64,000 nucleotides of DNA from Lysinibacillus fusiformis (GTDB lineage: Bacteria > Bacillota > Bacilli > Bacillales_A > Planococcaceae), in contig NZ_CP041696.1 of NCBI RefSeq assembly GCF_007362955.1, positions 2,108,001-2,172,000 on the forward strand. The letters are read 5' to 3'. Of the stretch, positions 32,139-57,932 are shown one piece after another (position 1 is the stretch's first letter; the number at the start of each line of letters is the position of its first letter). A program made the position numbers and the translations under genes. Below the pieces are notes generated by a model. That model saw nothing but the letters and a program-made list of their open reading frames with translations, was not told the DNA's origin and ran no database searches.

Positions 32139-32175
32139 GATTATAGTTAAATTTTAAAATGTGAGTTATAATTAA

Positions 32176-32240
32176 TGCTGTCATAATTTATAGTTATATT
32201 TGTCATAAGAATATAAGATATTTTGACACTAAAATAAACC
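32176..32240 (+). repeat. Left end of the 9.3-kb element
   Basis: Two TGTCATAA copies (32179 and 32201) and a TTTGACAC at about 32222 form an array like those of Tn7-type ends. A hairpin terminator begins directly inside. Confidence 0.55.
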
Positions 32241-32284
32241 TTGGTACAGAATAGTTGTTGCTGTATCAGGGTTTGTATTTTTTC
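32236..32284 (+). terminator. Terminator downstream of glmS
   Basis: AAACCTTGGTACAG (32236-32249) pairs with CTGTATCAGGGTTT (32261-32274, two G-T pairs), then a T tract. It may serve glmS or belong to the adjoining element end. Confidence 0.8.
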
Positions 32285-32480
32285 CAGTTTATTTTTTATA
32301 ATATGATACATAACAAATAAATTTAAATATTACAGCAAAAATTATAATTAATATTGTCACTTTAGCAGTTTTAATAGAGGATATATAAATTACATTTTTA
32401 ACTTAATTAATTGGTTTTTGCAACGCCATTAAGGATAGAATTGTTCTATTTAAAATATGATTGAATATTTATAATAAAGT

Positions 32481-32565
32481 TGTTGATTGACAACAAAGTC
32501 GGGTACTGACTGTACAGAACAAATAAAGTTGGAATCGTACAAAAAAAGTTGGAATCTGTGGATAA
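32481..32565 (+). repeat. Tn7-type right end, nested
   Basis: The terminus TGTTGATTGACAACAAAGTC matches the classical Tn7 terminus (TGTGGGCGGACAATAAAGTC, from memory) at 15 of 20 positions, including AAAGTC at the same distance. Two 20-bp-spaced AAAGTTGGAATC repeats follow at 32525 and 32545. No matching left end was found, and no gene lies in 32285-32880 apart from this. Confidence 0.65.
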
Positions 32566-32880
32566 CTCTCGACCTTATTATCAAGTAGACATAAATATAC
32601 GTTTTAGATTAAAATAAAATTCATAATAATAATGGCGGTAACTAAACATTATAGTTATAAACAATGCTTGTTTTCTTAGAGGTTATTGCTATTCAACTAC
32701 AGTTGAACAAGTATCTGTGTCTAGTGGTAAAAATATGCTTAGCTTGATGGGGATGTGTCTGCCCCCATAATGATGTTAAAATATATAATATATTAAATGT
32801 ATAAAAATTACTTTTTTGGCTTTTAATTCAATATCTTATAAGGTATAATGTATTTAAAAATTAACCAAGGAGTGATTTTT

Positions 32881-33189
32881 ATGTCTAGTTGGGGAAATAG
32901 TATAGTTAATGCTGCTAAACAAACAGCAAAGGATCAAATTTGGCCAGTTGTTACTGTGGGTTCTGCTATAGCAGGGGCTAAAGATGGATATAACAAAGGT
33001 GTTGATACGTATAATAATAACAAAGCAAACGCACATAAAGCAGCAGTTGGTGCTGGTGCTACACAAGCGAAACATTCTGTTGCTAAAGCTGTTGTGTCTA
33101 CCGCTGCAAAGTCAACAGGAGTAGGGGCTGTAATTAGTATTGGCACAAACTTCGCTTATCGTTTAGGACAAGAGCGAGGAGCATGGTAA
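32881..33189 (+). CDS. Small Ala/Gly-rich protein of unknown function
   Basis: A 102-residue protein. The ATG at 32881 follows CCAAGGAGTG, and an earlier in-frame opening upstream is not used. The composition is rich in Ala, Gly, Lys and Val (AIAGAKDGYNKGVDTYNNN, AAVGAGATQAKHSVAKAVVS, TGVGAVISIGTNFAY), suggesting glycine-zipper-like helices that could insert in membranes. There is no cleavable signal peptide. Its stop overlaps the start of the next gene (ATGGTAA), so the two are translationally coupled. A bacteriocin- or toxin-like role is conceivable but unproven. Confidence 0.6.
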   Translation: MSSWGNSIVNAAKQTAKDQIWPVVTVGSAIAGAKDGYNKGVDTYNNNKANAHKAAVGAGATQAKHSVAKAVVSTAAKSTGVGAVISIGTNFAYRLGQERGAW

Positions 33190-33854
33190 AAAATTTTTTT
33201 CAGCTCAATTTATCTCCTCATGCAAAAAAGTTAGAAATGAGGTATTTAGAAAATAATAATTTATTTTCTGTTCCTTTTTCTTATAATATGAATTCTTGTC
33301 AGTGGGAGATTGATAATTTAATATTAAATCAAAATTCTTTGTATTTTTTCTGTTTAAATGATTCTAACTATTTTTTAGACCCTTTAAATCAAAATATACA
33401 TACAGCTAAAAATTCCATGATATATTCTGTTCACAATCAACATATAAATGGAACAGAAATCTATTCGGATTTAATATTTTCTGTCCAGTCTTTTAAAATT
33501 CAAAATGCTAATTTAGATTCACATTTGTTTACCAAAAATTTTTTTGTAACAGATGAAGTAGTTGGTCTTTTAATAGATATGAATAAAACTATTATTGATA
33601 CGATTAAGGAAAGTATTATTTTGACTTTTGAATGGATAGGACCAAATGGGACATATTATATTACTGATAAATTTTTAACTGTAGATTTTCTTCGAGGTTC
33701 ATCTAAAATAAAGCATGGGCTTAGAATTGATTCCAGTACAATGGAACAAGGAAAATGGACTGTGAGAATACTAGTTAATAATATATTGAATTATGAATCT
33801 GTATTTTTTGTTCAAAGTATGACATATAAAAAGCCTTATAGTTTGAAGATGTAA
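33183..33854 (+). CDS. Unknown protein coupled to the small Ala/Gly-rich gene
   Basis: A 223-residue soluble-looking protein, very AT-rich in codon use (many Asn, Ile, Phe), consistent with transfer. The N-terminal half (SVPFSYNMNSCQWEIDNLIL, SLYFFCLNDSNYFLDPLNQN) has the rhythm of a carbohydrate-binding/isoamylase-N-like beta sandwich. The C-terminal half (TFEWIGPNGTYYITDKF, GKWTVRILVNNILNYESVFF) resembles a second Ig-like beta domain. I do not recognise the family. Because it shares an ATG/TAA overlap with the preceding gene, it may be the partner or immunity component of that product. Confidence 0.6.
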   Translation: MVKNFFQLNLSPHAKKLEMRYLENNNLFSVPFSYNMNSCQWEIDNLILNQNSLYFFCLNDSNYFLDPLNQNIHTAKNSMIYSVHNQHINGTEIYSDLIFSVQSFKIQNANLDSHLFTKNFFVTDEVVGLLIDMNKTIIDTIKESIILTFEWIGPNGTYYITDKFLTVDFLRGSSKIKHGLRIDSSTMEQGKWTVRILVNNILNYESVFFVQSMTYKKPYSLKM

Positions 33855-33927
33855 TAATAGTTAAATTATGCGGTACAACTACATTTACCATTAATTAGAA
33901 ATACTGAATTTTAGCATATATTTAAAA

Positions 33928-34010
33928 TGAAAACTCCTCTTCGTTAATCGATAGAAAACGAGAGGGGTTTTCATTTTATCTAATTCCTATGAATTAGATA
34001 AAATGTTTTA
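33928..34010 (+). terminator. Two consecutive hairpin terminators
   Basis: First, TGAAAACTCCTCT (33928-33940) pairs with AGAGGGGTTTTCA (33961-33973). Second, CATTTTATCTAATTC (33972-33986) pairs perfectly with GAATTAGATAAAATG (33991-34005), then TTTTA. They close the preceding two-gene unit. Confidence 0.8.
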
Positions 34011-34053
34011 TAATAAAGAATAAGCGTTTTATAGAGGGGAGAGTTATAATAGT

Positions 34054-34590
34054 TTGAAAAAGTATCTAATTATATTAATATTCATTATTTTATTTATAGT
34101 TCTTATATTTTATATTACAGAGAAAAATTACAATATCGAATTAAATGAAAATGAAATTACAAATAGCATTCAAAATAGACTAGGGGAAGAGCTAGACATT
34201 TCATTGATTGAAAAATATATTATTTCAAATTCAAATACACAAATTATTTTTTTTGAGTATAGTAAAAAAAATGGCTATGCACTTTTTAAAAAGAATCATT
34301 TTAACAATAAGCTAAAGCTTGTATCTTTAAATAAAAATCTTTTAGATGAATATATAGGTATTATCTATACAAATAAGGGGAATTATATCATTTTAAGTGG
34401 AAATTATAATGAAAAAATAGGCAGTTTTTTAGTAAAAGAAGGGGATAGTGAATATTTATTTAAAGTCGAAAATATTGCTGGGGAATTCGGTGATTTATAT
34501 ATTACACTCGAAACTATTCCGAGAAGTATTACTGAAAAAATGCTTGAAAATCCAATACTTTATAATGAGAATAATGAGCAAGTTTATTGA
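34054..34590 (+). CDS. Hypothetical single-pass membrane protein
   Basis: A 178-residue protein from a TTG start at 34054 (AGAGGGGAGAG upstream). Residues 4-24 (YLIILIFIILFIVLIFYITE) are a strong N-terminal membrane anchor, and the rest is a Lys/Asn/Ile-rich extracellular or soluble domain. I recognise no family motif. The AT-rich composition matches the two genes before it, suggesting common foreign origin. It stands alone between terminators. Confidence 0.5.
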   Translation: MKKYLIILIFIILFIVLIFYITEKNYNIELNENEITNSIQNRLGEELDISLIEKYIISNSNTQIIFFEYSKKNGYALFKKNHFNNKLKLVSLNKNLLDEYIGIIYTNKGNYIILSGNYNEKIGSFLVKEGDSEYLFKVENIAGEFGDLYITLETIPRSITEKMLENPILYNENNEQVY

Positions 34591-34740
34591 GAAAAACTTT
34601 GAATTTTATGGAAAAAAAAGACTACTTGTAATTTTAATTGAACGAGCTGTGGTAGCTCAACAATAGCAAAAAAGAATATATATCTTCATACACTTCTATA
34701 CAAAATAATGTTCCCAAATTAAAGTTAGGGAAGAGACCGA

Positions 34741-34785
34741 AAACAAAGAAATGTTGTTAAACCAACATTTCTTTGTTTTTTCCTT
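34741..34785 (+). terminator. Strong hairpin terminator
   Basis: AAACAAAGAAATGTTG (34741-34756) pairs perfectly with CAACATTTCTTTGTTT (34763-34778) around a 6-nt loop, followed by TTTTT. Confidence 0.85.
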
Positions 34786-34877
34786 TAAATATTGTTTATA
34801 CAGCTTTTTATGCAAATACATAAACAGGGCTACGATAATACTTTTTAAGATTATGAGAGTGTGTTATCTGAATAAAA

Positions 34878-36754
34878 GCTCTCGCGCAATGGGGGACAAG
34901 GGGCAATGCAGATGGTCAGTTTTTAAATCCTTCAGGAATCGCGATCACTAATAACGGTATCCTGTATGTGGGCGATCGTGATAATCGTCGAATTCAACAT
35001 TTTGATATCAACGGAAACTTTCTAGGCAAATGGGGGAGCGCAGGCACTGGAGACGGGCAGTTTAATCAGCCCTACGGTATTGCAGTTGATGAATGGGGTC
35101 ACGTCTATGTAACGGATAGTGAATTGCACCGGGTCCAAAAATTTGATGCAGATGGTACTTTCTTAAGCCAATGGGGAAATCAAGGCACTGGTGATGGTCA
35201 GTTTCGGTATCCTTTTAGTATTACGGTAGACAGCACAAACGGCCATATCTACATCCCTGATGCTCAGAACAATCGAATTCAAAAGTTTAATCTAGATGGG
35301 AGCTATGTGAGTCAATGGGGGAGCGCGTGGAGTGGAGATGGACAATTCAACTTCCCAAACGGTATAGCGATTGACAGTAACGGTAGCGTCTATGTAACGG
35401 AAGCCAATAATCATCAAGTCCAAAAGTTCGATAGCGATGGCCATTTCCTGAACAGGTGGTCCGGCTCGATTACCGCTACAGGTATTGTTCTTTCATCAAA
35501 AACGGGGCAGTTGATTGTAGGAGGAAAGCAAAGTTTCCAACTGACAGAGAACTTCTCAAATGGAACGAGTCAAGACCAAACGGCAAACACAACGTTTACG
35601 GTAAGTGATCCTTCCATCGCCTCGATTCAGAACAACGAATTAACAGCGATCTCGCCAGGAACAGTGACTGTAACGGCAACCTATGGCAGTACGTCAGATA
35701 GGGCGACGATTACGGTGAGTACACCACCTGTCACAACGACTGGCATTGTTCTATCACCAAAAACAGGACAATTAACAATAGGAGGCACACTAGACTTCCA
35801 ACTAGTAGAAAAACTATCAGATGGTACAAGTCAGGACCGAACAGCCTATACAACCTTTTCGGTAAGCAATCCAACCATCGCCACGATTTATTGGATCATG
35901 TCCAAGCGTTAGTACCACAACTGTCAAGTCAAGAGCGAACAATTCGCCTTGTATATCCAGCAGAAACAGCGACGGCAGAGGCTCATTTGAATCTTTCAAG
36001 AGATGCAGGATTATTTTTAAACCATCAACATACGGATTTCTTCATGCAAACAGGGTTAGCACAATTGACGATGCCGTCAACATCATTGGATGGCGTGACA
36101 GAAGATGTATTCTTCCGCATTGTGCCAGTCAAGGCACAACAACAGGAAACGATTCATACGAATGCACTAAAAAACGAACAGATCCAACAAACAATGCCGA
36201 AGAAAGCGATTATTTCGCTAATGGGAACCCCCATTACGATTGAAACGAATCTACAAAATCGCCCCGTAACGATTACGTTACCAATTTCGGCTGGGCTAAC
36301 AGAAGAACAAAGGGCTTCATTAGTCGTTTATATAGAGCATAGTGACGCTACAACGGAAGTAAAACGAGGGCGTATGGTTGAATTTGAACCAGGCGTGAAA
36401 GGGTTCCAGTTTGAAGTCGATCATTTCTCCACATTTAACTTAATCTATGCTTCAGAAGTTCAAGAAGAGGAAGCAGAAATGGAAGTGAATCGATTAGCAC
36501 CCTACATTCAAGGATACCCAGATGGCACATTTAAGCCAAATGCTTCGGTAACACGTGCACAAATGGCAATGATGTTAGCGCGTTTCTTAACGAATGGTAA
36601 CATCCCAACAACGACTAATAGTACTTTTGAGGATACAACAAATCACCCTTCAAAAGATGCGATTGAAGTTGTGAAGCAAGTGGGTTTATTTAATGGCACA
36701 ACTGAAACGACATTTAATCCAAACGGCACGATTAGAAAGGCTCTGTTAATGTAA
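34878..36754 (+). pseudogene. Truncated, internally deleted copy of the NHL/Big_2/SLH surface protein
   Basis: From about 34878 the sequence is nearly identical to 49508 onward in the intact gene, so the signal peptide and first NHL repeats are missing. At about 35889 it jumps to the equivalent of 51003, deleting about 490 bp (one and a half Big_2 domains) and shifting the frame. It ends at GGCACGATTA (about 36734), where it joins the 490-bp repeat, losing the last SLH domains. Three independent lesions mean no functional protein. The few mismatches suggest a recent duplication. Confidence 0.9.
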
Positions 36755-37220
36755 CGAAAAGCTAATCTTCTATAACTTATAAAATCCTTAGAGCCGATAT
36801 TATGCAGCTTTTTACACAGAGTTGCATAGTTTTGGCTTAAAAAGTTCTTTATTACTGCTCAATTCAAGTTTAATTTTTTTACCTATTGGGGTTAATTCTT
36901 TGTTATTTTTTAAGAATGAAACTTCCATTGTAGCTTCGCCCTCTAACTTGAAGTCTTCTTTGAGAAATTCAAACTTAAGTGATTCACCTTTTTTAATTTT
37001 AGAGCCATCAGCGTTAACACCTGTTGGTGAATGTCCTAATATATTTACTTCCACTCCATAGATATCAAAATTAGCATTATTTTTATATTAATTATCATAT
37101 TTTCATTGTTCGGTTCAATTGCACCGCCAGAAGATCCCGTACAGACTGATAAAATATAAATAGATGATTTGTTTATCTAACAGGGAAGATATTAGCCTAT
37201 CACTTATGTGTAGTTACAGC
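36731..37220 (+). repeat. 490-bp direct repeat, copy 1
   Basis: Same length and about 97 percent identical by eye to 54691-55180. It starts ATTAGAAAGGCTCTGTTAAT and ends TGTGTAGTTACAGC, the last bases being the 3' end of the reductase gene 37200-38246. Copy 1 therefore looks like the parent location. Confidence 0.95.
36812..37054 (-). CDS. Small hypothetical protein in the 490-bp repeat
   Basis: An 80-residue frame (MEVNILGHSPTGVNADGSKI) with lysine/glutamate-rich beta-strand-like segments. The same frame is kept in the second repeat copy with a handful of amino-acid changes, which mildly supports coding. There is no clear ribosome site (upstream reads TGGAGTGG, plausible), and I recognise no family. 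It could be the conserved tail of a larger lost protein. Confidence 0.4.
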   Translation of the reverse strand: MEVNILGHSPTGVNADGSKIKKGESLKFEFLKEDFKLEGEATMEVSFLKNNKELTPIGKKIKLELSSNKELFKPKLCNSV

Positions 37221-38246
37221 TTTATTCTTTTGTTGTAACGCTTCATTTTTTTCAGCGAAGCGGTCATTGTGAGAAGAAACGCCCGCCATTTTTGATTCTG
37301 TAGGGTCAATGTATAATTTTGCGCTATTTACAGCGAGAACAGCATCGCTAAATGCGCCTGCAATCAGTCTTATTTTTCCTTCATTCGTTACAAAATCGCC
37401 TGCGCCAAAGATGCCTGGCATGCTTGTGCACATTTTTGGTGTAACGGAAATGCCCCATTCTTCAGAGGCTAAGCCCCAATCCATAATGGCGCCACCAAAG
37501 TGACGGTCAAACCCGTGATTGACAAGCACTTCGTCTACTTCAATTTTTGTCGTATCATTTGAATCAACATGCTGTAATGTGACATGTTCGATTTTATTGC
37601 CATTGCCATGTAAACGGGAAACCGTATAAGGAACATAGGTTGTTGCGATAGACTTCATGCGTGTTACAGACGATTCAAAGGCACTAAAGTCATCTCGTCT
37701 ATGAACGATGTATACTTCTTTGGCGATAGGAGCCATTTCAATAGCCCAATCTACAGCTGAGTCGCCTCCACCAGAAATGAGTACACGTTTATCTTTAAAC
37801 TTATTTATGTTCGTTACCGTATAGTGAAGGTTGTTTAGTTCATAACGGTCAGCGCCTTCAACCGTTAATTTCTGAATGCGTGTAATACCACGTCCTGTAG
37901 CTAAAATAATCGTTTTCGTATAATGCTTCTCGCCTGTTTTAGCTGTTAAGACGAATATGCCATCATCGCGTTTTTCCATGCCAACAACTTCTTGACCAAA
38001 TACGATTGTTGGATTAAATGTCATAGCTTGCTTGATTAAGGAGTGAATAATATCTTCACAGCGAACAGGCTCAATGCCACCGACATCCCAAACTAGTTTC
38101 TCAGGATAGGTGCGCATAAACCCACCTAATTCATGTTTTACTTCGATAATTTTTGTTTTCATTTCACGCATGCCACTGTAAAAGGCAGCATACATGCCAG
38201 CTGGGCCACCACCGATTATAATTACATCATAAATCTCTTGTTCCAT
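37200..38246 (-). CDS. Ferredoxin/flavodoxin-NADP+ reductase (thioredoxin-reductase-like type)
   Basis: A 348-residue flavoprotein. The FAD site is IIIGGGPAGMYAAFYSG (residues 9-25), the NADPH site is VLISGGGDSAVDWAIEMA (near 153) and the C-terminal FAD contact is GIFGAGDFVTNEGK. No CxxC redox pair is present, so it is the YumC/YcgT ferredoxin-NADP reductase group rather than a thioredoxin reductase. Its start abuts the stop of the siderophore-binding gene (TAAATG), indicating one operon. It may supply electrons for iron release or haem/siderophore processing. That role is inferred from context. Confidence 0.88.
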   Translation of the reverse strand: MEQEIYDVIIIGGGPAGMYAAFYSGMREMKTKIIEVKHELGGFMRTYPEKLVWDVGGIEPVRCEDIIHSLIKQAMTFNPTIVFGQEVVGMEKRDDGIFVLTAKTGEKHYTKTIILATGRGITRIQKLTVEGADRYELNNLHYTVTNINKFKDKRVLISGGGDSAVDWAIEMAPIAKEVYIVHRRDDFSAFESSVTRMKSIATTYVPYTVSRLHGNGNKIEHVTLQHVDSNDTTKIEVDEVLVNHGFDRHFGGAIMDWGLASEEWGISVTPKMCTSMPGIFGAGDFVTNEGKIRLIAGAFSDAVLAVNSAKLYIDPTESKMAGVSSHNDRFAEKNEALQQKNKAVTTHK

Positions 38247-39224
38247 TTAAGGCACCAACCTTTCAACTAAATAATCAAGGAATAGTGGAGAGCCAATTAA
38301 ACCTTCACCTACAACGTAATCTGCTGTTTTTAATGGGTAAACATTGCCTGCTTTCACAGCATCCATTGCTTGCCACATCGGGCTATTCTTTAAATCTTTC
38401 AAGGATTGTTCACTACTATAATTTTGCATTTGACGTTGTTCGACAAAAATATGATCTGCGTCAATTTCAGGTAAAACTTCTAAGGAAATGGGCGTGAACC
38501 AATCATTATTATCTTTCAACATAGTTGGAATATTTAATCCAAGTTGTGTGTATAGCATGTCACTTCCAGGACTACCCTTTTCAGTGCCTAGCACACGATA
38601 TTGATTTTGTTCTACACGTAATACGAGAATTTTTTCGTCACCTATAGCATTGTGTAGTTTTTCTTTGGTTTCTTCTATTTTTTTCCTAAACTTCTTGAGA
38701 GCAAGTTCAGCTTCTTTCTCTTTATTGAACAGTTCACCAAGCACAGGAACAAATTCATCTATTGCAACGCCTGCCTCAACAGCAACAGTAGGGGCAATTT
38801 TACTTAAAGCCTCGTATTTTTTAGCATCAATCGCTGCACCTTGAGCAATAATGACATCTGGTGCTGCTTCAAGAATAACTTCTAAATTATCCTCATATTG
38901 CACAGTCGGAATTATTTTAACATTGTTGTCATTGAATAATTTGAAGCGATATTCAGGTTCAATTTCTTCAACGACTGTCACCATTTGAGGCGTTACACCG
39001 ATTTCAATTAAGTTTTCAGCATAGTTAGAACCAAGGACTAACATATTTTTAGGTTCGGTAGGGATAGTGACATCACCGTAGGCATCTTTTACAACACGCG
39101 TTGTAGACTCGCTTTTTTCTTTTTGATTCTTTGCCTTATTTCCGCTCTCTTTGTTAGTGCTTGAGCAAGCAACTAATGTTAAAGCAACTAACAGTAAAAG
39201 TATATATTGCATAGTTTTTTTCAT
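38247..39224 (-). CDS. Siderophore-binding lipoprotein (FeuA/YfiY-like)
   Basis: A 325-residue ABC-transporter substrate-binding protein of the FhuD/BtuF fold. The lipobox LTLVAC places the lipid cysteine at residue 20. The mature protein shows VVKDAYGDVTIPTEPKNMLV, PDVIIAQGAA and VLRVEQNQYRVLG, the usual class III layout with two lobes and a long helix. AAAAGGAG lies before the ATG, and a Fur box covers the promoter. It is followed immediately by the reductase. No permease or ATPase genes are adjacent, so it must share a transporter encoded elsewhere. Confidence 0.9.
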   Translation of the reverse strand: MKKTMQYILLLLVALTLVACSSTNKESGNKAKNQKEKSESTTRVVKDAYGDVTIPTEPKNMLVLGSNYAENLIEIGVTPQMVTVVEEIEPEYRFKLFNDNNVKIIPTVQYEDNLEVILEAAPDVIIAQGAAIDAKKYEALSKIAPTVAVEAGVAIDEFVPVLGELFNKEKEAELALKKFRKKIEETKEKLHNAIGDEKILVLRVEQNQYRVLGTEKGSPGSDMLYTQLGLNIPTMLKDNNDWFTPISLEVLPEIDADHIFVEQRQMQNYSSEQSLKDLKNSPMWQAMDAVKAGNVYPLKTADYVVGEGLIGSPLFLDYLVERLVP

Positions 39225-39246
39225 TGATTATAGCTCCTTTTTATTT

Positions 39247-39265
39247 GATAATGATTATCACTATC
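39247..39265 (-). promoter_or_regulatory. Fur box
   Basis: GATAATGATTATCACTATC matches the 19-bp Fur consensus at 18 positions and lies about 25 nt upstream of the siderophore-binding gene. It predicts iron repression of the two-gene operon. Confidence 0.92.
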
Positions 39266-39322
39266 AAATAATAACAGGTAATGAGGGCGCCTAATATAGC
39301 ATAAAGTGCCTTAAAAATTGGA

Positions 39323-40924
39323 TTATTGTGTTTTAGGGCAAACATCTAAAATCGATTGTTCAATCTGTTGCATAATTTTCCTTTTGCCAAACACACTGCA
39401 ATTGTTAATCCATAAACCCGTATCCACATAAAAAACACGCTTATTTTTTACAGCATCTAAATTCGCCCACGGCTCACTTTTTTGTAAAGTAGCTAAGCTA
39501 AGGTCGGCAGTAAAATAATCCATTATGCGTTTTTCAATAAACAAATAAGTAGGATTGGCTACCACTAATTGTTGTAAAGAACATATGTTGAAACTATTTT
39601 CATTTGCGCGCAATATTTCAGGCATTTGTAAGCCAAGTTCCTGATATAAAAGGATAGCCGAGTCACTAGAAGATTCACCGACATAGCGATAACCCAACTC
39701 CTCCACACGTAAGTAAAGTACAGTAGCATCCTTTGCAATATGATGTTGTATTTTATTTTTTAGAACGTCTACATGTGTCGTAAGTTCGTGAATGATTTGT
39801 GTAGCTTCATTCTCTTTATTAAACAATTCACCAAAATAACGAATTAGTGAATTTAAATCATAAGGTAGCCCAGTGATAACAGGGGCGATAGTTTGGAAGT
39901 GTTGTTTTGTCTCTTCCGTTAAGTCGACACCGATAATTAAATCGGGTTGTTGTTGTACAATTATGTCTTGTTGAATCACATATTGAGGCATTTCTAAAAT
40001 GGTTGTACCAACTTCATGAAAAAGAATCTTTTGATACTTCGGAGTTAGGGAGCTAGTCACAGTAACACAATTAGGTACAATACCTAATGCAATCACAATT
40101 TCTGCATGTGCAGGTGAGAGAAAGCAAATACGATATTCACCAACAGCCTTTTTGAATTGCTTAGGAGGGCGATCAACAATGCGTTTAAACTGTCGACTAA
40201 AGTTTTGCACATCATCAAAACCAACTTTTTTTGCGATATTTTGTGATAAATCATCTGTTGTTAATAGCATTTCTTGTGCGCGGAAAATACGATAACTAAT
40301 TAAATAGGCTATCGGTGTTTTATCATATAACTCAATGAACTTTCTCGAATAATACCATGGGCTATATCCAGCGATAGCTGCTAGTTCATCTCTTGTCATC
40401 ATTTGATTATATTTTTTTTGCATATAAATAACAGTATGTTCAATTCTTTGTTCAAGTGTGTATTCATCTGTTGGCCGCTCTTGTTGTAATTCTTTCAACA
40501 AGCTGTATAAAATAAATTGTTTAATGGTGATATGGAGATGGTCTGTGTTTTTAGCGAGCGATATGCGAATATCTGCGATGACCGTTTCAGGCACTCGTTG
40601 AAGGTAGTAACCATTCGTTGTATCGATAGACCAATTACAGGTTGATTTCATTTCGGTATCATACGACACAAAGCTAATTAAATAGCCTGAAAAATCAAGA
40701 CGGTTTGTATTTGTAAGTTGGATAACCGCACCACTTTCAATGGCGGTTAAATGCCCAAATACAATATGTTCTTTGTGCCCATTAATGGATAGAGTGGTTT
40801 GGCCATCCGTAATCAATAAGAGAGCCGCACTATCAAGATGTATCGTTGATTTTTGAAATAATGATTTGGCTAAATCTTTTATTTCTGTGCAATGTGCCAG
40901 CCAATTAGGATTAGAATCAAGCAT
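39323..40924 (-). CDS. AraC-type regulator fused to a siderophore-binding domain (Btr-like)
   Basis: A 533-residue protein with a small N-terminal sensor-like part, an AraC double helix-turn-helix at about 165-262 (ELAAIAGYSPWYYSRKFIEL, KKVGFDDVQNFSRQFKRIV) and a FhuD-type binding domain at about 268-530. The fusion is that of B. subtilis Btr, which senses Fe-bacillibactin and activates the feu uptake operon. Here it precedes the siderophore-binding gene in the same direction and probably activates it. AAAGGAG lies 8 nt before the ATG. Confidence 0.88.
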   Translation of the reverse strand: MLDSNPNWLAHCTEIKDLAKSLFQKSTIHLDSAALLLITDGQTTLSINGHKEHIVFGHLTAIESGAVIQLTNTNRLDFSGYLISFVSYDTEMKSTCNWSIDTTNGYYLQRVPETVIADIRISLAKNTDHLHITIKQFILYSLLKELQQERPTDEYTLEQRIEHTVIYMQKKYNQMMTRDELAAIAGYSPWYYSRKFIELYDKTPIAYLISYRIFRAQEMLLTTDDLSQNIAKKVGFDDVQNFSRQFKRIVDRPPKQFKKAVGEYRICFLSPAHAEIVIALGIVPNCVTVTSSLTPKYQKILFHEVGTTILEMPQYVIQQDIIVQQQPDLIIGVDLTEETKQHFQTIAPVITGLPYDLNSLIRYFGELFNKENEATQIIHELTTHVDVLKNKIQHHIAKDATVLYLRVEELGYRYVGESSSDSAILLYQELGLQMPEILRANENSFNICSLQQLVVANPTYLFIEKRIMDYFTADLSLATLQKSEPWANLDAVKNKRVFYVDTGLWINNCSVFGKRKIMQQIEQSILDVCPKTQ

Positions 40925-41054
40925 TTATTTACTCCTTTACTTTGTTGTGATAAAAGTATACTACGGAATGTCACAGCAAACGGCATAAAATCGACAAGTT
41001 CAAAATGAATAACATAAGGAAATAAAAAATCATTACAAAACATTGAAATGTATG

Positions 41055-41088
41055 AAACAGCCTCCCTATGATAAGGGAGGCTGTTTCT
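41055..41088. terminator. Hairpin terminator
   Basis: AAACAGCCTCCCT pairs perfectly with AGGGAGGCTGTTT around ATGATA. It lies immediately after the minus-strand frame 41087-41380 and upstream of the AraC gene. Confidence 0.85.
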
Positions 41089-41380
41089 AATGAGGCACAT
41101 ATAAGGGGAGTTCATCAATGGTTGTAAATATTCTAGTATAAGCATCTTTTATATTCTTTTCATTTCGTACATCATCGTAAAGCCCGTATCCCCAATAGAG
41201 CATTTCATCATTTGATTGATTGTAAACACCAGTAGCATAATCTCCTGTTTGTGCGTCAGACATATCTTCATATGATAAGAATATGGAACACGTTGAAGAC
41301 GAACAAGTACTTGAATGTGTTGATGATATAGATGAATTTAAAATGTGGAATAGCCTACAGAATACACTTCTCATAATCAA
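41087..41380 (-). CDS. Small hypothetical protein, possibly a fragment
   Basis: A 97-residue frame ending at a strong terminator. The C-terminal half (SNDEMLYWGYGLYDDVRNEK, AYTRIFTTIDELPLYVPH) looks like genuine protein, but the N-terminal half is Ser/Cys-rich and unconvincing and there is no good ribosome site. It adjoins the right-end array of the 9.3-kb element. It may be the 3' remnant of a gene cut by transposon activity. Confidence 0.35.
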   Translation of the reverse strand: MIMRSVFCRLFHILNSSISSTHSSTCSSSTCSIFLSYEDMSDAQTGDYATGVYNQSNDEMLYWGYGLYDDVRNEKNIKDAYTRIFTTIDELPLYVPH

Positions 41381-41399
41381 ACTATAAACAAACTTAAAA

Positions 41400-41519
41400 C
41401 CTGTACAAGTTTATGACAGTGTATATTATAAAATTGTGTAATTGTGACAGGTGTTATTATAAAAAGTGACACCGTGATCTTATAAATTGCTATAAAAAAC
41501 TTATAATTTTATGACAACA
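41400..41519 (-). repeat. Right end array of the 9.3-kb element
   Basis: Read inward on the minus strand, the TGTCATAAAATTATAAG terminus is followed by further TGTCAC and TGTCATAAAC units (four TGTCA motifs within 120 nt) separated by AT-rich spacers. This is the mirrored counterpart of 32176-32240. Confidence 0.55.
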
Positions 41520-41545
41520 TTAAATATAATTCACATTAAAAGTTG

Positions 41546-41645
41546 TGTATCTTTAAAACAAAATTTAACCGTTTGTAATAAAGTTGTACCGTTTTGAAAA
41601 AAGTTATACCGTTTATAAAAAAGATGAACTGTTTTTAAGATCTTA
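41546..41645 (+). repeat. Right-type end with abutting 20-bp sites
   Basis: Related motifs start at 41560 (AAAATTTAACCG), 41580 (AAAGTTGTACCG), 41600 (AAAGTTATACCG) and 41620 (AAAGATGAACTG), exactly 20 bp apart. These fit TnsB-type binding sites. Confidence 0.8.
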
Positions 41646-41673
41646 GAATGATAATTTATAATAGTTTGATCAA

Positions 41674-41704
41674 AAATCCTGTTATATGCAGGATTTTTTT
41701 TTTT
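41674..41704 (+). terminator. Hairpin just inside the right-type end
   Basis: AAATCCTG (41674-41681) pairs with CAGGATTT (41689-41696), then ten T. A hairpin at this place recurs inside the other Tn7-like ends. Confidence 0.85.
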
Positions 41705-41913
41705 CAGCAATCGGGCCAGTTAGTTAAAGAAGACATACTTAAACAAAACATGTGAGTAGTTTGATAATACGATAATAATTAGACAAGCATTCGGAACTCG
41801 TTGAATGAGCAACAATACTTTGGTTTTTGGTCAAATATATAACTTTCAAGTAAACTACTTAATAAATACTAATAGGTGGCTAAACGTTTTGTTGTGATTC
41901 TTTATTTTGAAAA

Positions 41914-41939
41914 TGAACGATTTTTCCCAGTTAATCGTA
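41914..41939 (+). promoter_or_regulatory. SigY-type promoter of the sigma operon
   Basis: TGAACG (41914-41919), exactly 16 nt, then CGTA (41936-41939) agrees with the B. subtilis SigY recognition pattern. It lies 35 nt before the sigma gene, suggesting autoregulation. Confidence 0.78.
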
Positions 41940-41974
41940 TTACATATAAATCATTATTGTATGGAGTAGATCTC

Positions 41975-42505
41975 ATGGATGAAAAGGATTTAATTCGAAA
42001 GGCGAAAAAAGGAGATACATTGGCTCTTTCGAAACTGCTACAACAGAACTATTCGTTCCTCGTAAAGTATTTAATGAAAGTTACCCTTCATCCACAAATC
42101 GCAGAAGATTTAACACAAGAGACGATGATGAAGTGTATTGAAAAAATCCAACTGTATAATGGTGAATCCAAGTTTTCCTCATGGCTCATCACAATCGCAA
42201 CGAACCTTTTTATCGATCAACAGCGCAGAAAGAAGCGGGAGAAAAACTGGCTAGAGCAGGAACAAGCGCTCCGAAAAATGAAATGGAATGCAGCCATTAT
42301 GAACGAAGAATGGAATGATGTACTTGATGTACTTGCTCAAATTAATGAAGAAATACGTATGCCAATCGTGTTAAAGCATTATTACGGATATTCATATAAG
42401 GAAATTGGAAAAATGATGGGTATTGCAGAAGGAACAGTAAAATCTCGAGTTTCAAATGGTCTAAAAAGTGTACGAAAGGAGTTGGCTGAACTTGAAAGAG
42501 TATGA
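41975..42505 (+). CDS. sigY: ECF sigma factor, SigY-like
   Basis: A 176-residue extracytoplasmic-function sigma factor. Region 2 carries LHPQIAEDLTQETMMKCIEK and KFSSWLITIATNLFIDQQRR. Region 4 carries MPIVLKHYYGYSYKEIGKMM and GIAEGTVKSRVSNGLKSVRK. ATG 41975 (ATGGAGT upstream) lies downstream of the predicted promoter. The longer opening from 41876 would include that promoter. Length, the following YxlC/YxlD-like genes and the promoter type all point to SigY. SigY responds to nitrogen starvation and maintains a toxin plasmid region in B. subtilis, but its role here is unknown. Confidence 0.8.
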   Translation: MDEKDLIRKAKKGDTLALSKLLQQNYSFLVKYLMKVTLHPQIAEDLTQETMMKCIEKIQLYNGESKFSSWLITIATNLFIDQQRRKKREKNWLEQEQALRKMKWNAAIMNEEWNDVLDVLAQINEEIRMPIVLKHYYGYSYKEIGKMMGIAEGTVKSRVSNGLKSVRKELAELERV

Positions 42506-42836
42506 TTCTAAAAAAAGTAATTTTATGTTGGATGATGAAAATGAATTAACGGTTAAGCAATTAATAGATGGTTTAGAAAAACTGGATCAATGGAATCCAG
42601 TATCTACTCCAAGCTTACAATGGTTTCAACAGAATGTTGAATTAGAGAAAAAAAGAATACGAAAAAAACAATGGAAAGACCTCCTCACGTTTATCTCTGT
42701 TGCAGTATTTGTGCTTTCGGTTGGGATTGCTGTCGTTTATCGTCAGCCAATTCTTTTTCTTTATTTTCAGCTTGTGGGGATTATCTTACTGCCCTTAGCG
42801 CTTAACAAAACTAGAAAGAAGGTCAGTAATGAATGA
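42492..42836 (+). CDS. yxlC: YxlC-like SigY-associated membrane protein
   Basis: A 114-residue protein from TTG 42492 (GAAAGGAG 10 nt upstream), overlapping the sigma gene by 14 nt. The N-terminal 60 residues are hydrophilic (EKLDQWNPVSTPSLQWFQQN). Two hydrophobic segments follow (LTFISVAVFVLSVGIAVVY and ILFLYFQLVGIILLPLAL). This is the architecture of YxlC, which in B. subtilis belongs to the negative control of SigY. Overlapping genes support one regulatory unit. Confidence 0.7.
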   Translation: MKEYDSKKSNFMLDDENELTVKQLIDGLEKLDQWNPVSTPSLQWFQQNVELEKKRIRKKQWKDLLTFISVAVFVLSVGIAVVYRQPILFLYFQLVGIILLPLALNKTRKKVSNE

Positions 42837-43057
42837 TCTCAAACGAACTAAGTAGCACACCGTTTTGGTTATGCGTCGTAATTGCATTCATTCTGATTTG
42901 CCAGAGCTCATGGATGTTTTGGGATGCACGGAAGAGGGGATATAATGCTTGGCTATGGGGCATTTTAGGCCTTATTCAATTTCCAACGTATCTTATTATC
43001 TATCTTTTTTTTGCAAGAAAAATATTTAAAAGAAAGGTCTCAGGTTCAAATTCCTGA
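42833..43057 (+). CDS. yxlD: YxlD-like small membrane protein (phospholipase D-nuclease N-like)
   Basis: A 74-residue protein with two membrane segments and the motif SSWMFWDARKRGYNAWLWGI between them, typical of PLDc_N/YxlD anti-sigma accessory proteins. It overlaps the preceding gene (ATGA). With YxlC it probably forms the membrane anti-sigma complex for the SigY-like factor. A terminator overlaps its 3' end, so the operon ends here and lacks the YxlF/YxlG ABC transporter of B. subtilis. Confidence 0.72.
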   Translation: MISNELSSTPFWLCVVIAFILICQSSWMFWDARKRGYNAWLWGILGLIQFPTYLIIYLFFARKIFKRKVSGSNS

Positions 43058-43070
43058 GATTTTTTTTATT
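43038..43070 (+). terminator. Terminator of the sigma operon
   Basis: TCTCAGG (43038-43044) pairs with CCTGAGA (43053-43059), then eight T. It overlaps the yxlD stop. Confidence 0.85.
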
Positions 43071-43084
43071 TATTTTTTCGTGAG

Positions 43085-43110
43085 TGAACGATTAGACGAA
43101 CGTAATCGTA
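43085..43110 (+). promoter_or_regulatory. Second SigY-type promoter
   Basis: TGAACG (43085-43090), 16 nt, CGTA (43107-43110): identical elements and spacing to 41914-41939. It drives the decayed small gene and probably the serine hydrolase. Confidence 0.78.
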
Positions 43111-43144
43111 TTAAGGGTAAATAAACAATTTGGAGGAGAAAAAA

Positions 43145-43333
43145 ATGAATGAACTAGTAAATGGAATCCTATGGGAAAGGATTGCGCAAATTCTTGTCTT
43201 ACAATGATTACCGCATTAGTTTGGTTGTATTAGAAATGAAAAAATTGAATCTCTTGTAAGCAATTTTGAGAAATTACTTGATAAATATCTTATGGAAGGC
43301 AGCTTCTATAAATTTTTACCATCTGTTAAATAA
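43145..43333 (+). pseudogene. Decayed small membrane-protein gene
   Basis: It has a good Shine-Dalgarno (TGGAGGAG) and ATG, then NELVNGILWERIAQILVLQ before a stop. A neighbouring frame gives MITALVWLY. The first frame resumes as NEKIESLVSNFEKLLDKYLM and SFYKFLPSVK. Two compensating frameshifts in a 62-codon gene indicate recent loss. I do not recognise the family, but its position is that of yxlE in the B. subtilis operon. Confidence 0.6.
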
Positions 43334-43407
43334 AGACAACAAGGAGATACCTTTGTTCGAAATAACAGCAATGAAATCAATCACTTATCTAAGGAGGCAA
43401 TTCTTTT

Positions 43408-45489: not shown

Positions 45490-45510
45490 CTACAATTTAA
45501 GATGTACTTC

Positions 45511-45560
45511 AACAAAACCAGTATGACACCGAAAAGGTGTTTTGCTGGTTTTGTTTGTAT
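45511..45560 (+). terminator. Two-level hairpin terminator
   Basis: AACAAAACCAG (45511-45521) pairs with CTGGTTTTGTT (45545-45555), and an inner ACACC-GAAAA-GGTGT hairpin sits within. Confidence 0.85.
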
Positions 45561-45793
45561 TTACGCATTCTCTTTACGAAGGGGCTTACTGAACTCTTAT
45601 CATTTCCCCATAAACAATCATGGTAATAATCTGTTAATGGTGTTTGTCTTAAAATACTAAAAGCTTTATGACAATAGCTGAAAGCATAAATTAAAGTGAA
45701 AGGGAATGAAATTGTTCCCTTTTTACTTTAGAACTTCTTAAACTAATGGTGTTTACTTGAAGATCATTGAGTTGCATAGGCAGCTCTTTATTG

Positions 45794-45820
45794 AACTAAC
45801 GGAGCAGGATAGTTGAAGAA
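45794..45820 (+). repeat. Dispersed CTAACGGRGCAG motif, copy 1
   Basis: AACTAACGGAGCAGGATAG followed by TTGAAGAAG. Arms AACTA and TAGTT can pair. Related copies lie at 46490, 46807 and 52485. The 45561-45901 spacer otherwise holds only a further hairpin (AAAGGGAA 45700, TTCCCTTT 45716). Confidence 0.6.
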
Positions 45821-45901
45821 GGATTTATAGATGTAATTGAAGAAGTATCTGTCAATATACGTAATTTATTTATATACTGATTTTTTAAGGGAGAAATTAA
45901 A

Positions 45902-46432
45902 GTGAGGGAATTAAACAAACATTTCGCAATAAAATTTGGTGAGATGGTGGATTCACGTTTAATATGGTACAAACATTATTTTAAGTTTTGTGATGAGATA
46001 ATTGAACATATGGAGAATCCTCCATATTGGATAATAGAACTTGCAACAACTAAATATATTCCAGAGGCTACAAAAGTTATTAACGAATATGCTTATTCAG
46101 AACCTTTTGAGGAAATACCATCTGAAATATGTGATTTTTTCATTGCTTGTTTATATTTAAGATATAACAGGAGAGAAATCTCCTGGGCAACATTTTTACA
46201 AGAAGCTGGTGAATATGCTGATGGTACCCAGGCAGTAAAGTGTGATTGTGAATGGTTTTTCGAACTGCTTAATGTTTATGAGGATAGTGAGTTTTCAAAA
46301 GGATTAGAGAAAAACCAGATCAAAAAAGTAAGGGAAATATTCCAAGATAATATTACAGAAGCCCAGGAATTATATAGACCATTTCAACATTATTTTCAAG
46401 AATTTTTAACTCAAAATAATAAAAATAAATAA
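45902..46432 (+). CDS. Hypothetical protein, possibly immunity-type
   Basis: A 176-residue soluble, acidic, aromatic-rich protein (YWIIELATTKYIPEATKVIN, CDFFIACLYLRYNRREISW, CDCEWFFELLNVYEDSEFSK). GTG 45902 follows AAGGGAG. The all-helical look and Trp/Tyr content resemble DUF2247-like and other small cytosolic proteins often found as immunity factors of polymorphic toxins, but I cannot assign it. It lies alone inside the 5.1-kb element just before its left-type end. Confidence 0.6.
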   Translation: MRELNKHFAIKFGEMVDSRLIWYKHYFKFCDEIIEHMENPPYWIIELATTKYIPEATKVINEYAYSEPFEEIPSEICDFFIACLYLRYNRREISWATFLQEAGEYADGTQAVKCDCEWFFELLNVYEDSEFSKGLEKNQIKKVREIFQDNITEAQELYRPFQHYFQEFLTQNNKNK

Positions 46433-46532
46433 CCCCTTGAATATCATTTTGTTAAAAGATTGTGAAGAATTGTACTTAAAGTAACGGGGTGCTTTAATTG
46501 AATATTCGCATCCCGAAGTAACCAAACTTTTT

Positions 46533-46665
46533 TATAAAAAAACCAAACTAGATAAATAAAGAACCAACTGTTTTGATCAAACTTTGTTTCAAAACAGTTG
46601 GTTTCTTTCTGTATAAAAACAGCGTTCGCAACTTACTTTTAATCGAACTTTATTAAAAAACTACA
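46533..46665 (-). repeat. Left-type end of the 5.1-kb element with three spaced sites
   Basis: Read inward, TGTAGTTTTTTAATAAAGTT is the terminus and first site (AAAG at +14). Further sites AAAGTTTGATCAAAAC and AAAGTTTGGTTAC follow. A 15-bp perfect inverted repeat (AACCAACTGTTTTGA at 46562-46576, TCAAAACAGTTGGTT at 46589-46603) encloses the second site. Confidence 0.75.
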
Positions 46666-46670
46666 AGTTG

Positions 46671-46745
46671 TGTGGCTTTGTAATAAAGATTGATAATTTG
46701 TAATATAGTTTGATAAAAATCACCTCTTTAGTTATTCTTTGAGAT
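46671..46745 (+). repeat. Second right-type end, head-to-head with the previous left-type end
   Basis: The terminus TGTGGCTTTGTAATAAAGAT has AAAG at +14 and a second site 20 bp on (ATAGTTTGATAAAAAT at 46705), then a degenerate hairpin (CACCTCTTTAG..TTTGAGATG). Only AGTTG separates it from the left-type end. Confidence 0.72.
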
Positions 46746-46806
46746 GTTTTATTTATTGGACACGTATGTTGAATTTGATTTTTATCTTGTGAAGAATTGT
46801 ACTTAC

Positions 46807-48055: not shown

Positions 48056-48085
48056 GGAATTAATTTGTTTCATATTTTGTTCGTA

Positions 48086-48240
48086 CTATGAAACAACCTC
48101 AGATTTCAAGGTATTTCGATTTACTACGATATATTCACCTGTTGATTTATTCATTACTTGAGACACTTCCTTGGTATGCGTTATCTCAAGCCAATCATTT
48201 TGTATATCAACCAATAATTTTACTTCCACACCAATTTCTA
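48086..48240 (-). pseudogene. C-terminal remnant interrupted by a transposon end
   Basis: About 50 residues are open on the minus strand (GVEVKLLVDIQNDWLEITHT, SQVMNKSTGEYIVVNRNTLK) to TAG at 48086-48088. The frame breaks exactly where the Tn7-type repeats begin at about 48241, so the parent gene was cut there. Family unknown. Confidence 0.5.
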
Positions 48241-48316
48241 ATAAAGTTATACCGTTTGTAAAAAAGTTGCACCGGTTTTACCCCTTTGGATAATTTTAAT
48301 CTAAAGGGGTGTTTTT
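48241..48316 (+). repeat. Right-type end remnant (terminus lost) plus hairpin
   Basis: AAAGTTATACCG (48243) and AAAGTTGCACCG (48263) lie 20 bp apart. ACCCCTTT/CTAAAGGGGT then forms a hairpin with a T tract ahead of the tnsA-like start. No TGT is found at the expected distance upstream. Confidence 0.7.
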
Positions 48317-48632
48317 ATGTCAAAATGAACTAGAACATCTAAAGTTGAAAAGTGAATTAAAGAAGGTCGTGGCTCTGGAATTGGAGAGGATTATAAACCA
48401 TGGTTAAACATTCAAGAATTGTCTTCTAAAGGTCGGTCTACACGTTTAAAAGGTATTAAAACAAATAGACAGCATGAATTTCTATCAGATTTGGAACGGA
48501 ATTACTTTTATTTAACTGAATTCGGATTCTATCGTTAGTATTCGAGAACAATTTCCTTTATTGCCGTTGGAAAAATCGAAATATGAGGAACATGAACTTT
48601 ATAGAAGGTTAGGATTGAATGAATGTGCTTAA
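48317..48632 (+). pseudogene. tnsA: Decayed tnsA-like transposase subunit
   Basis: From ATG 48317 the frame encodes IKEGRGSGIGEDYKPWLNIQ, SKGRSTRLKGIKTNRQHEF and LSDLERNYFYLTEF, the N-terminal part of TnsA, the Tn7 5'-end-cutting endonuclease. It then shifts frame to DSIVSIREQFPLLPLEKS and stops at 48632. Two TGA codons (fourth codon and before IKEG) and the frameshift kill it, and the catalytic C-terminal half is absent. It lies directly inside a right-type end, as tnsA does in Tn7. Confidence 0.85.
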
Positions 48633-52204: not shown

Positions 52205-52215
52205 AAAATAAAAAG

Positions 52216-52270: not shown

Positions 52271-52484
52271 TGGGATCATTCCTACTTGTTGAAAAAATAG
52301 TTTTACAAAAATGAAGAGTTTTGAACAATCTTTTTTATAAAAATTATGTTCAAACAAAACTAACCCCACTTCCAAGGACTGTAAAATTATGGAATTATCT
52401 CTAAAGATTCTTCTGAAATTGTATTTGAGATACTAACAGGTGAAAATTTTGAAGATTACAAGTAACGAAGTTGTTGTTTTATTT

Positions 52485-53172: not shown

Positions 53173-53183
53173 GGTGAATAACA

Positions 53184-53399: not shown

Positions 53400-53447
53400 A
53401 CATTGTGGAGGAAACGTTATAAAACAATTATTAGGGGAGGTATAACG

Positions 53448-55180: not shown

Positions 55181-55286
55181 AAAAATATGGCATCGAATTT
55201 TTTGAGTTAATTTTGTTCTTGTATGTCTTCTAATTCAAGGTCTGTAAAATAAATATTCTTTTCTCTAATATCAGGCGGGTTTCCCA

Positions 55287-55598: not shown

Positions 55599-55768
55599 TT
55601 ACTGTGAGACACTTTTTGGAAGGATAAATCAGTTCCTACTTTTATAGAATTGGCTGATTTGGTATTTACTTAGGTTATAGTAACAGCTAGATTTTAATAG
55701 CTGAGAATTAGTTGTTGAAAAATAATTATAAAAAATAATTATTTAAAAAAGGAGAGATTTTATTATTT

Positions 55769-57352: not shown

Positions 57353-57480
57353 CTAGAAAAAAACGTAGATTCAAAGCCTATTATTACATTTAACGATGTC
57401 TCCACAAACTAGGCTAAGGACATGATTGAAGACATCGCAGCTCGTGGTATTATCACAGGTTATCAGCTATCCAGACTGCA
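57353..57480 (+). pseudogene. In-frame SLH-domain remnant of the GHL10 gene
   Basis: Directly in frame after the stop: SKPIITFNDVSTN, a TAG, then AKDMIEDIAARGIITGY. This is the start of an S-layer homology domain. Later sequence is unrelated. Confidence 0.75.
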
Positions 57481-57534
57481 CGTTTCGACCGAAGTTTCAG
57501 AATTTTATAGAGTGTTTTAGAATGTGGGTTTGAA

Positions 57535-57569
57535 CATTTTATAGTAAACAGCTTTATTGGAACTCTTCA
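57535..57569 (-). repeat. Left-type end, partner unknown
   Basis: Read inward, TGAAGAGTTCCAATAAAGCT has AAAG at +14 and resembles the 46665 end. Exactly five bases (GTTAT) separate it from the next terminus. Confidence 0.55.
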
Positions 57570-57574
57570 GTTAT

Positions 57575-57837
57575 TGTAGATTTGGAATAAAGTCATACCG
57601 TTTTAAATAAAGTTCTATCGTTTGTAAAAAAGTTGCGATGAAATACCTCTTTAGATTATAGTCATCTAAAGGGGTATTTTTTATGTTCAGACGTACAGGA
57701 TTATCAAATAATGAAAAATGTATTAAAGAAGGCCGTGGCTCTGGAACGGACAGTAATAAGTATGAACATGGCATAAAAAAGACCCTTGCAGGGGTTAAAT
57801 AGCTTCCAAACGAATCAAAAATTTTTCTAAACCAACA
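57575..57837 (+). mobile_element. 263-bp miniature Tn7-like element with GTTAT target duplications
   Basis: The terminus TGTAGATTTGGAATAAAGTC is followed by three sites exactly 20 bp apart (57589, 57609, 57629), a hairpin (CCTCTTTAGAT..ATCTAAAGGGG), a truncated tnsA start, a minus-facing hairpin (ACCCTTGCAGGGGT) and the opposite end (inward TGTTGGTTTAGAAAAATTTT). GTTAT stands on both sides (57570-57574 and 57838-57842). It looks like a MITE-style deletion derivative. Confidence 0.75.
57683..57802 (+). pseudogene. tnsA: 5' fragment of a tnsA-like gene
   Basis: A 39-codon frame starting MFRRTGLSNNEKCIKEGRGS, matching the TnsA N-terminus (compare IKEGRGSGIGEDY at 48317-48632). It diverges after GSGTDSN and stops at 57800-57802. 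The position directly inside a right-type end is that of tnsA in Tn7. Confidence 0.75.
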
Positions 57838-57858
57838 GTTATGTATAGTTTTTTTAGT

Positions 57859-57932
57859 TAAAAAAATGATCATTTGAATAAAGTTTGATTAAAGATAACC
57901 TCTTTGGGTATGATGCCTGTGAGAGGTTTTTT
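57859..57932 (+). repeat. Further right-type end remnant with hairpin
   Basis: AAAGTTTGATTAAAGAT (57880), preceded 20 bp earlier by a weaker copy, then AACCTCT (57897-57903) pairing with AGAGGTT (57922-57928) and seven T. No terminus fits the +14 rule. The 57933-58101 stretch is without a gene. Confidence 0.5.

Follow-up and report, generated by a model that had tools for sequence, protein, structure and literature searches.

In Tn7, the sites of the right end are contiguous and those of the left end are spread along the DNA, and Tn7 elements that form genomic islands were reportedly the subject of work by Parks and Peters (2007). Tn7 inserts approximately 20-25 bp behind glmS and creates 5-bp duplications, as described in PMC2918618. 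For Bacillus cereus ATCC 10987, PMC2359905 describes an island, BCEGI-1, that lies directly behind glmS and carries two tnsABCD sets. The locus considered here lies in a window of 64,000 nucleotides (bases 2108001-2172000) of the complete 4.97-Mb genome of Lysinibacillus fusiformis, a member of the Lysinibacillus group, where the region behind glmS is very probably a layered stack of decayed Tn7-family transposons that arose by serial insertion at the attachment site. As in BCEGI-1, the island starts directly behind glmS; unlike BCEGI-1, with the two tns sets given in its description, the window has seven right ends or remnants of them and no intact tns gene. The stack belongs to an already known kind of system, and its less expected part is the tns-less elements, found at glmS and dispersed. 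Among the matches listed from the open-licence literature, no account of this case was found besides the B. cereus paper PMC2359905.

The genus comparison set consisted of 32 genomes, labelled G001 upward, and the dialects of end sequence are called types A, B and C. The resemblance to Tn7 and to Firmicute Tn7-like elements at attTn7 includes the TnsA-E gene order of G010, right ends that point toward glmS, insertion about 25 nt past the stop codon, 5-bp duplications, and site arrays that are contiguous at the right and spread at the left. Unlike Tn7, the window holds only remnants and tns-less elements, mixes several end dialects, and has a type B end at nucleotide 22. Instead of a tnsA-D set, the window elements retain only a broken tnsA, whereas G010 carries the set at the same site.

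Ends and elements behind glmS

The features of the region, with positions counted from the start of the window, are as follows.

30336-32138, plus strand: glmS, with Pfam SIS and GATase matches; the C-terminal end reads ...NLAKSVTVE
32154-32159: TTAAAA, left direct-repeat copy of element 1, identical to 41536-41541
32160-41535, plus strand: element 1 (type B), 9.4 kb, from inverted ends, flanking repeat and Pfam
32160-32380, plus strand: right end of element 1 (type B), terminus at nucleotide 22 after the glmS stop; type B is also found behind glmS in relatives
32481-32560, plus strand: type C right end inside element 1, with TGT and a core 14 nt in; the same type lies 22 nt behind glmS in G017
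41440-41535, minus strand: left end of element 1 (type B), an inverted match to the type B right end, with a related left end in G014 (C87)
41541-41545: AGTTG, left of element 2
41546-46665, plus strand: element 2, 5.1 kb, right end at 41546, left end at 46665, AGTTG at both flanks, with Pfam results for four open reading frames (ORFs)
46524-46665, minus strand: left end of element 2, three sites over ~140 bp; a 90% identical stretch occurs in G021 and G009
46666-46670: AGTTG between element 2 and the next right end
46671-46756, plus strand: right end and hairpin of the next element, with related dispersed copies in the same genome at loci L110 (87%) and L111 (77%)
48235-48578, plus strand: truncated right end, hairpin and broken tnsA N-terminus (48317-48578), matching a right end plus tnsA of G014 with 94% DNA identity over 48240-48575
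57500-57569, minus strand: left end with a TGA terminus, similar to left ends of the TGA type in G009 and G011; a partner right end was not seen
57575-57837, plus strand: 263-bp mini-element with right end, hairpin, first tnsA codons and degenerate left end
57842-57940, plus strand: right end and hairpin of the layer farthest from glmS, a 76% match to L110

The ends in the window have TGT termini and site arrays that are contiguous on the right and spread on the left, an arrangement that is clearest in element 2, where AGTTG on both sides represents a 5-bp target duplication. When element 1 is set aside, the sequence ...TTTTAAAAGTTG precedes the right end at 41546 and forms a 25-nt spacer behind glmS; the 25-nt insertion distance of element 2 is thus one deduced after this removal. 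The cargo of element 2 consists of a sigma factor, a DUF5345 protein, a beta-lactamase-family protein and an ORF without assigned function. Neither element 1 nor element 2 contains a tns gene detectable by tblastn with TnsA-E queries (TnsA and TnsB from four relatives; TnsC, TnsD and TnsE from G010), and in the whole window these queries match only the tnsA remnant at 48317-48578.

Site scoring placed plus-strand runs at 41572-41612, 46677-46697, 48235-48255 and 57581-57621, and three minus-strand sites across ~140 bp ending at 46665; two more minus-strand matches fall at 57563, corresponding to the left end at 57569, and at 52341, where no end was recognised. Three cores at a period of 20 occur in 2 runs; 40 third-order Markov simulations gave 0.2 such runs on average and never more than 1. 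A strict scan requiring a terminus and two cores was weak, yielding 3 matches where the simulated average was 0.45 (maximum 2); of these three, one is probably due to chance and another is an inner site.

A sequence-only reading of this DNA had listed a series of Tn7-like ends, and its termini at 32481, 41546, 46671 and 57575 (right) and at 46665, 57569 (TGA) and 57837 (left) were recovered. In the case of 48241, however, no terminus is present, the position belonging to a truncated right end (sites 48235 and 48255) followed by tnsA, whereas 57859 is an inner site of an end with its terminus at 57842 and disturbed spacing. The end nearest glmS (32160, type B) was absent from that list. The common grammar proposed for the ends, with a TGT terminus, an AAAG core 14 nt in and sites mostly every 20 bp, applies with exceptions, since the end at 32481 has a spacing of 30, not 20, after the first core, and the core of the left end at 57837 is degenerate. 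Every right-type end on the list is indeed oriented toward glmS. With regard to the two tnsA-like remnants that had been proposed, 48317-48578 is matched by tblastn (87% over 70 aa and 19 aa in another frame, E 2.5e-36) and is broken by two in-frame stops and a frameshift; 57683-57745 has no tblastn match and is similar at the DNA level only, with 79% similarity of 57596-57745 to a right end and tnsA start of G014.

The order outward from glmS is element 1, element 2, the right end at 46671, the truncated right end with the broken tnsA, the left end at 57569, the mini-element, and the right end at 57842. The 3' end of glmS would be the presumed TnsD target, and TnsD proteins of successive elements would recognise it, placing each new element with its right end toward glmS about 25 nt past the stop codon. 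Each insertion would duplicate about 5 bp and displace older elements away from glmS, so that layers should run from the youngest, near glmS, to the oldest. Transposase genes would later have been lost or broken, leaving elements 1 and 2 with both ends and cargo only. For the layers in this window, targeting by TnsD is suggested by the TnsD family match in G010 and the target geometry.

The glmS site and tns genes in the genus

Ends of type A or C were scored behind glmS in 17 of the 32 genomes, and type B ends in a further 6. Termini lie 19-26 nt behind the glmS stop codon in the 23/32 genomes with a clear end (the scan covered this orientation only), and A- and C-type ends genus-wide are found 22-26 nt behind glmS. 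Of the other nine genomes, four were read as having an end that is degenerate or has a single site (G004, G005, G006 and G025), two as having a further repeat type (G021 and G029), and three as unclear (G020, G023 and G026).

Repeated insertion should be visible as repeats of the 5 nt that precede the glmS-proximal end, here called the att 5-mer. Of 76 left-end candidates in the 23 genomes, 8, from seven genomes, have the att 5-mer immediately after them, whereas shuffling the 5-mers among genomes gave a mean of 0.70 and a maximum of 6, with 0/5000 shuffles reaching 8. It also precedes 8 of 43 internal right-end candidates (shuffled mean 0.74, maximum 7, 0/5000). The 5-bp target duplication seen in element 2 is in line with this test across the genus, and the repeated capture at one attachment site that the sequence-only reading had proposed is supported by att 5-mers at internal junctions in several genomes. 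Neighbouring layers have like end types in G007/G008 and in G013, as judged from dialects compared by eye and in small numbers.

The genome of the window has no TnsA, TniQ or Mu-transpos_C (TnsB) family match; 14 named control genomes were also without a match, and relatives were matched. In the genus, family matches were found to TnsA in 15/32 genomes, to TniQ in 12/32 and to Mu-transpos_C in 15/32. A tnsA gene lies no more than 1.6 kb behind glmS, with the right end toward glmS, in eight of the 32 (G010, G014, G016, G022, G024, G027, G028 and G030), that of G027 being cut short (155-aa frame). The assignment to the Tn7 group is supported by this occurrence of tnsA behind the same glmS together with the same end grammar in relatives.

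The most complete case is the element at glmS in G010, which encodes full-length TnsA, TnsB, TnsC, TnsD and TnsE. Its TnsA matches Tn7 TnsA 1t0f (E 3.3e-37), its TnsB matches Tn7 TnsB 7pik (E 2.5e-114), its TnsC has AAA_22 and TniB family matches, its TnsD matches PF15978 (1.1e-85) and Tn7 TnsD 8glu (2.3e-32), and its TnsE matches PF18623 (6.7e-11). G016 and G028 have ORFs of lengths that match the G010 tns genes, with TnsA and TnsB compared, and in G030 the TnsD is split into two ORFs. In the case of G014, two tns operons are arranged in tandem, with the first tnsC split into two ORFs and the second tnsA short, and the second right end is preceded by the G014 att 5-mer, CTATG. The tandem TnsB proteins belong to distant clades, the first being 88% and the second 38% identical to the TnsB of G010.

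Outside the comparison set, TnsB of pLEW6932 (Staphylococcus sp. 693-2) and of a Peribacillus asahii plasmid are 76% and 83% identical, respectively, to G010 TnsB, with tns genes in the G010 order and TnsE annotated on pLEW6932. Unlike the G010 element, both copies are plasmid-borne, and no glmS is annotated in the stretches compared.

Two side observations concern tns loci elsewhere. In G028 (L052, reversed), an ORF at 221-1045, nuclease-like by eye, lies between the right end and tnsA. Two records labelled as Stenotrophomonas rhizophila plasmids (CP031730 and CP065518) contain a Lysinibacillus-like glmS and, at 97% identity, part of the Tn7-like TnsB, and the labels are likely to reflect mislabelling or contamination.

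Ends dispersed away from glmS

A two-unit pattern with at most one mismatch is present in 31/32 genus genomes, as compared to 0-2 matches per genome with a reversed-pattern control. For the genome of the window, the pattern gave 21 matches against 2 in the control; with two mismatches the numbers are 32 and 11, and these additional rows are largely chance because the control reaches 11 against 32. Similar ends are thus dispersed genome-wide, including in this genome, and 73 dispersed arrays were collected from 12 complete or nearly complete genomes, some of them without an end terminus and possibly due to chance. Ten of the 73 are in the genome of the window, outside the glmS island, and the 11 other genomes have 1-18 each.

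Among 49 dispersed right ends that possess a terminus, seven are paired with a left end at a distance of 1.2-6.1 kb that has the identical 5 nt outside it, whereas shuffling gave 0.62 (maximum 4 in 2000). The 5-bp repeats differ among the seven elements, each of which has one to five ORFs of at least 80 aa, and none of the seven is in the genome of the window. No TnsA, TnsB or TniQ match coincides with them, TnsC and TnsE not having been searched there, and the TnsA-E queries gave no match in the ten loci around the dispersed ends of the window's own genome. When the joined flanks of the seven were compared to all collected loci to look for empty sites, only partial matches, many of them repeats, were found beyond the elements' own loci. 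For the L161 element, the 5-bp match is weaker evidence because its flanks are themselves repeats. On the basis of their ends and flanking repeats, the seven may be read as transposition products away from glmS.

The arrays were also compared to the direction of replication in these 12 of the 32 genomes, leaving out G028 (chromosome in pieces), G020 (no array), G027 (glmS arrays only) and drafts, with the replication terminus assumed at the midpoint opposite dnaA. Of the 73 arrays, 51 run with replication and 22 against it; excluding 6% either side of the midpoint, the numbers are 42 and 9. A filtered set of 54 copies, in which shared insertions were partly merged and an end terminus or at least two hits were required, has 38 co-directional copies (p 0.004) and 28 copies in the terminus-proximal fifth (p 2e-7), p-values that ignore the relatedness of genomes and of neighbouring arrays. 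Merging removed only 4 of the 73 arrays and is incomplete, as evidenced by G001 2834673 and G024 2786000, which have 98% identical surroundings and are counted apart; in addition, several arrays near the G001 and G013 midpoints lie within ~30 kb of each other. With respect to genes, 38/53 copies are on the strand of the upstream gene and 44/54 have the orientation of most genes around them. For copies farther than 6% from the midpoint, 31/38 are co-directional and 29/38 agree with the gene strand.

In Bacillus, approximately 0.74 of genes are co-oriented with replication. Orientation alone does not show TnsE activity, since 42/51 is not different from a co-orientation of 0.74 (p 0.20). TnsE-directed Tn7 insertion favours sites of replication termination, with an orientation bias (PMC5371812). 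The clustering near the assumed terminus, together with the orientation relative to replication, would be what TnsE targeting gives, with gene orientation and shared ancestry as confounding factors.

Two loci in this collection show other arrangements. In L132 of G013 (~5269-7020), a dispersed element with the 5-bp repeat GGATC is directly followed by a second array without TGT, which appears to be stacking away from glmS. In L117 (10471-11337, minus strand; positions 4306470-4307336 of the genome of the window), a right end and hairpin provide a tnsA start (MSKRTRT) to a DUF2785 protein, an ORF in which the beginning of a transposon gene is joined to a different gene.

Origin of the stack and competing explanations

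Several observations weigh against serial insertion at glmS as the origin of the stack. No clean empty glmS site was found among the 32 genus genomes, nine of which are degenerate, of another repeat type or unclear; of the comparison suggested by the sequence-only reading, it is thus the relative with full-length TnsA-E (G010), and not the empty site, that was found. In the att 5-mer test, 16/23 genomes gave no left-end match, end offsets were set by eye, and the shuffled maxima reached 6 and 7. The hits from the genome of the window itself (one left, two right) are circular, because AGTTG was taken from its own internal junction; without them 7 left and 6 right hits remain, one of the latter (G024 +18025) being an inner-site false positive. 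The outer junctions, with GTTAT between 57569 and 57575 and GTTA between 57837 and 57842, differ from AGTTG, and the type C end sits within element 1. The dispersed ends count on the same side: the sequence-only reading had held that repeats occurring genome-wide away from tns genes would speak against it, and such repeats do occur, yet seven copies are two-ended with exact 5-bp repeats. Since these read as transposition products, the Tn7 assignment stands and a second route is added. Not every end in the window needs the glmS route, because similar ends are dispersed and the type found at 46671 has dispersed relatives in its own genome.

It is improbable, however, that a route without site specificity (TnsE-like, or small end-pairs acting in trans) spread all of the ends, with the glmS region being one of many landings. 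The arrays outside glmS, absent from G020 and from G027 (which has arrays at glmS only), and the seven two-ended elements with their differing 5-bp repeats would fit such a route, but random landing would not give termini 19-26 nt behind the stop codon in the 23 of the 32 genomes with a clear end or att 5-mers at internal junctions in several genomes. The notion that the 20-bp repeats are regulatory or structural, and not transposon ends, is hardly credible: the repeats are AT-rich and several are followed by hairpins, but the same arrays lie directly upstream of tnsA in relatives, paired with left ends and exact direct repeats.

For type B, a different origin deserves more weight, although it is still unlikely: 32160-41535 could be a mobile element of some other kind, or sequence native to the region downstream of glmS, with a terminator. 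Judged by position, type B right ends have no TnsA, TnsB or TniQ match downstream of them (some contigs end early). No type B transposase is known, a point against a Tn7-family origin of this layer, and no type B copy with a transposase was found by nhmmer over the loci or by an exact pattern scan of contigs (three records). The flanking repeat measures 6 bp, or 5 bp and an extra base, and the type B hairpin also occurs near glmS in G002, G006, G009, G011 and G018, behind A-type ends. Type B right ends lie directly behind glmS in G001, G003, G012, G013 and G019 as well, and farther downstream of glmS in G010, G021, G022, G028 and G029. In G026 a copy lies away from glmS, and in G002 one is on a different contig. 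On the other hand, 32160-41535 reads as one inserted element because of the inverted partner at 41535 and TTAAAA at both flanks, and the type B terminus looks like an insertion border, since the nucleotides between the stop codon and type B vary among genomes whereas the sequence after the terminus is conserved. Contig NZ_JPVQ01000051 of Ureibacillus massiliensis has a B left end 46 bp from a B right end, and in G010 a B copy lies behind the left end of an A-type element that has GTGAG at both ends. The Ureibacillus ORF beside the B left end, cut by the locus start, gave no informative match with Pfam, in pairwise comparison to TnsD, or in a protein search.

Serial insertion at the attachment site accounts for the start of the accessory island exactly behind glmS and makes the order of insertions readable. 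Tn7 can inhibit a second insertion nearby, a phenomenon known as target immunity (described in PMC11406308 and PMC12452197), and the mixed end dialects provide natural material for how one attachment site accepts several elements despite it. A broader proposal, offered tentatively but as a serious possibility, is that complete Tn7-family elements lacking tns genes form a population in Lysinibacillus genomes, are mobilised in trans by TnsABCDE elements that pass through, and have left a fossil record of both pathways, with ordered layers at glmS (TnsD) and a terminus-biased, replication-oriented scatter (TnsE). Elements of this description have two ends, 1-6 kb of ordinary cargo and exact 5-bp duplications. 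A survey that delineated 6,549 Tn7-like transposons did so around transposase-bearing elements (PMC8649781), and the words 'nonautonomous' and 'non-autonomous' are absent from its main text. Such a design, as described there, would miss tns-less elements, and Tn7-family gene transfer would be undercounted if such elements are common.

The remaining observations concern the content and boundaries of the island. Element 1 carries fragments of NHL and S-layer-homology (SLH) genes, a siderophore-type cassette (redox enzyme, binding protein and AraC fusion) and ORFs without assigned function. The cassette (37156-41092) is 93-95% identical in the glmS islands of G004, G007, G008 and G021, where its direction with respect to glmS is unchanged, and appears to be cargo common to several species at one site. 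The NHL-repeat and SLH stretches are doubled in the island with 97-99% identity (34880-36183/49510-51297 and 36731-37030/54691-54990), probably by recent internal duplication or gene conversion. On the right boundary side, 59291-64000 is common to G028 with 86% identity, where OpuAC lies ~42 kb behind glmS; in other genomes with glmS and OpuAC on one contig, the two genes are far apart. Short repeat families, ACTAACGGAGCAG...TAGTTGAAGAAG among them, recur at 45795, 46457, 46784, 46807, 47638 and 52485, and a related stretch adjoins a dispersed end at position 4027522 of the same genome.

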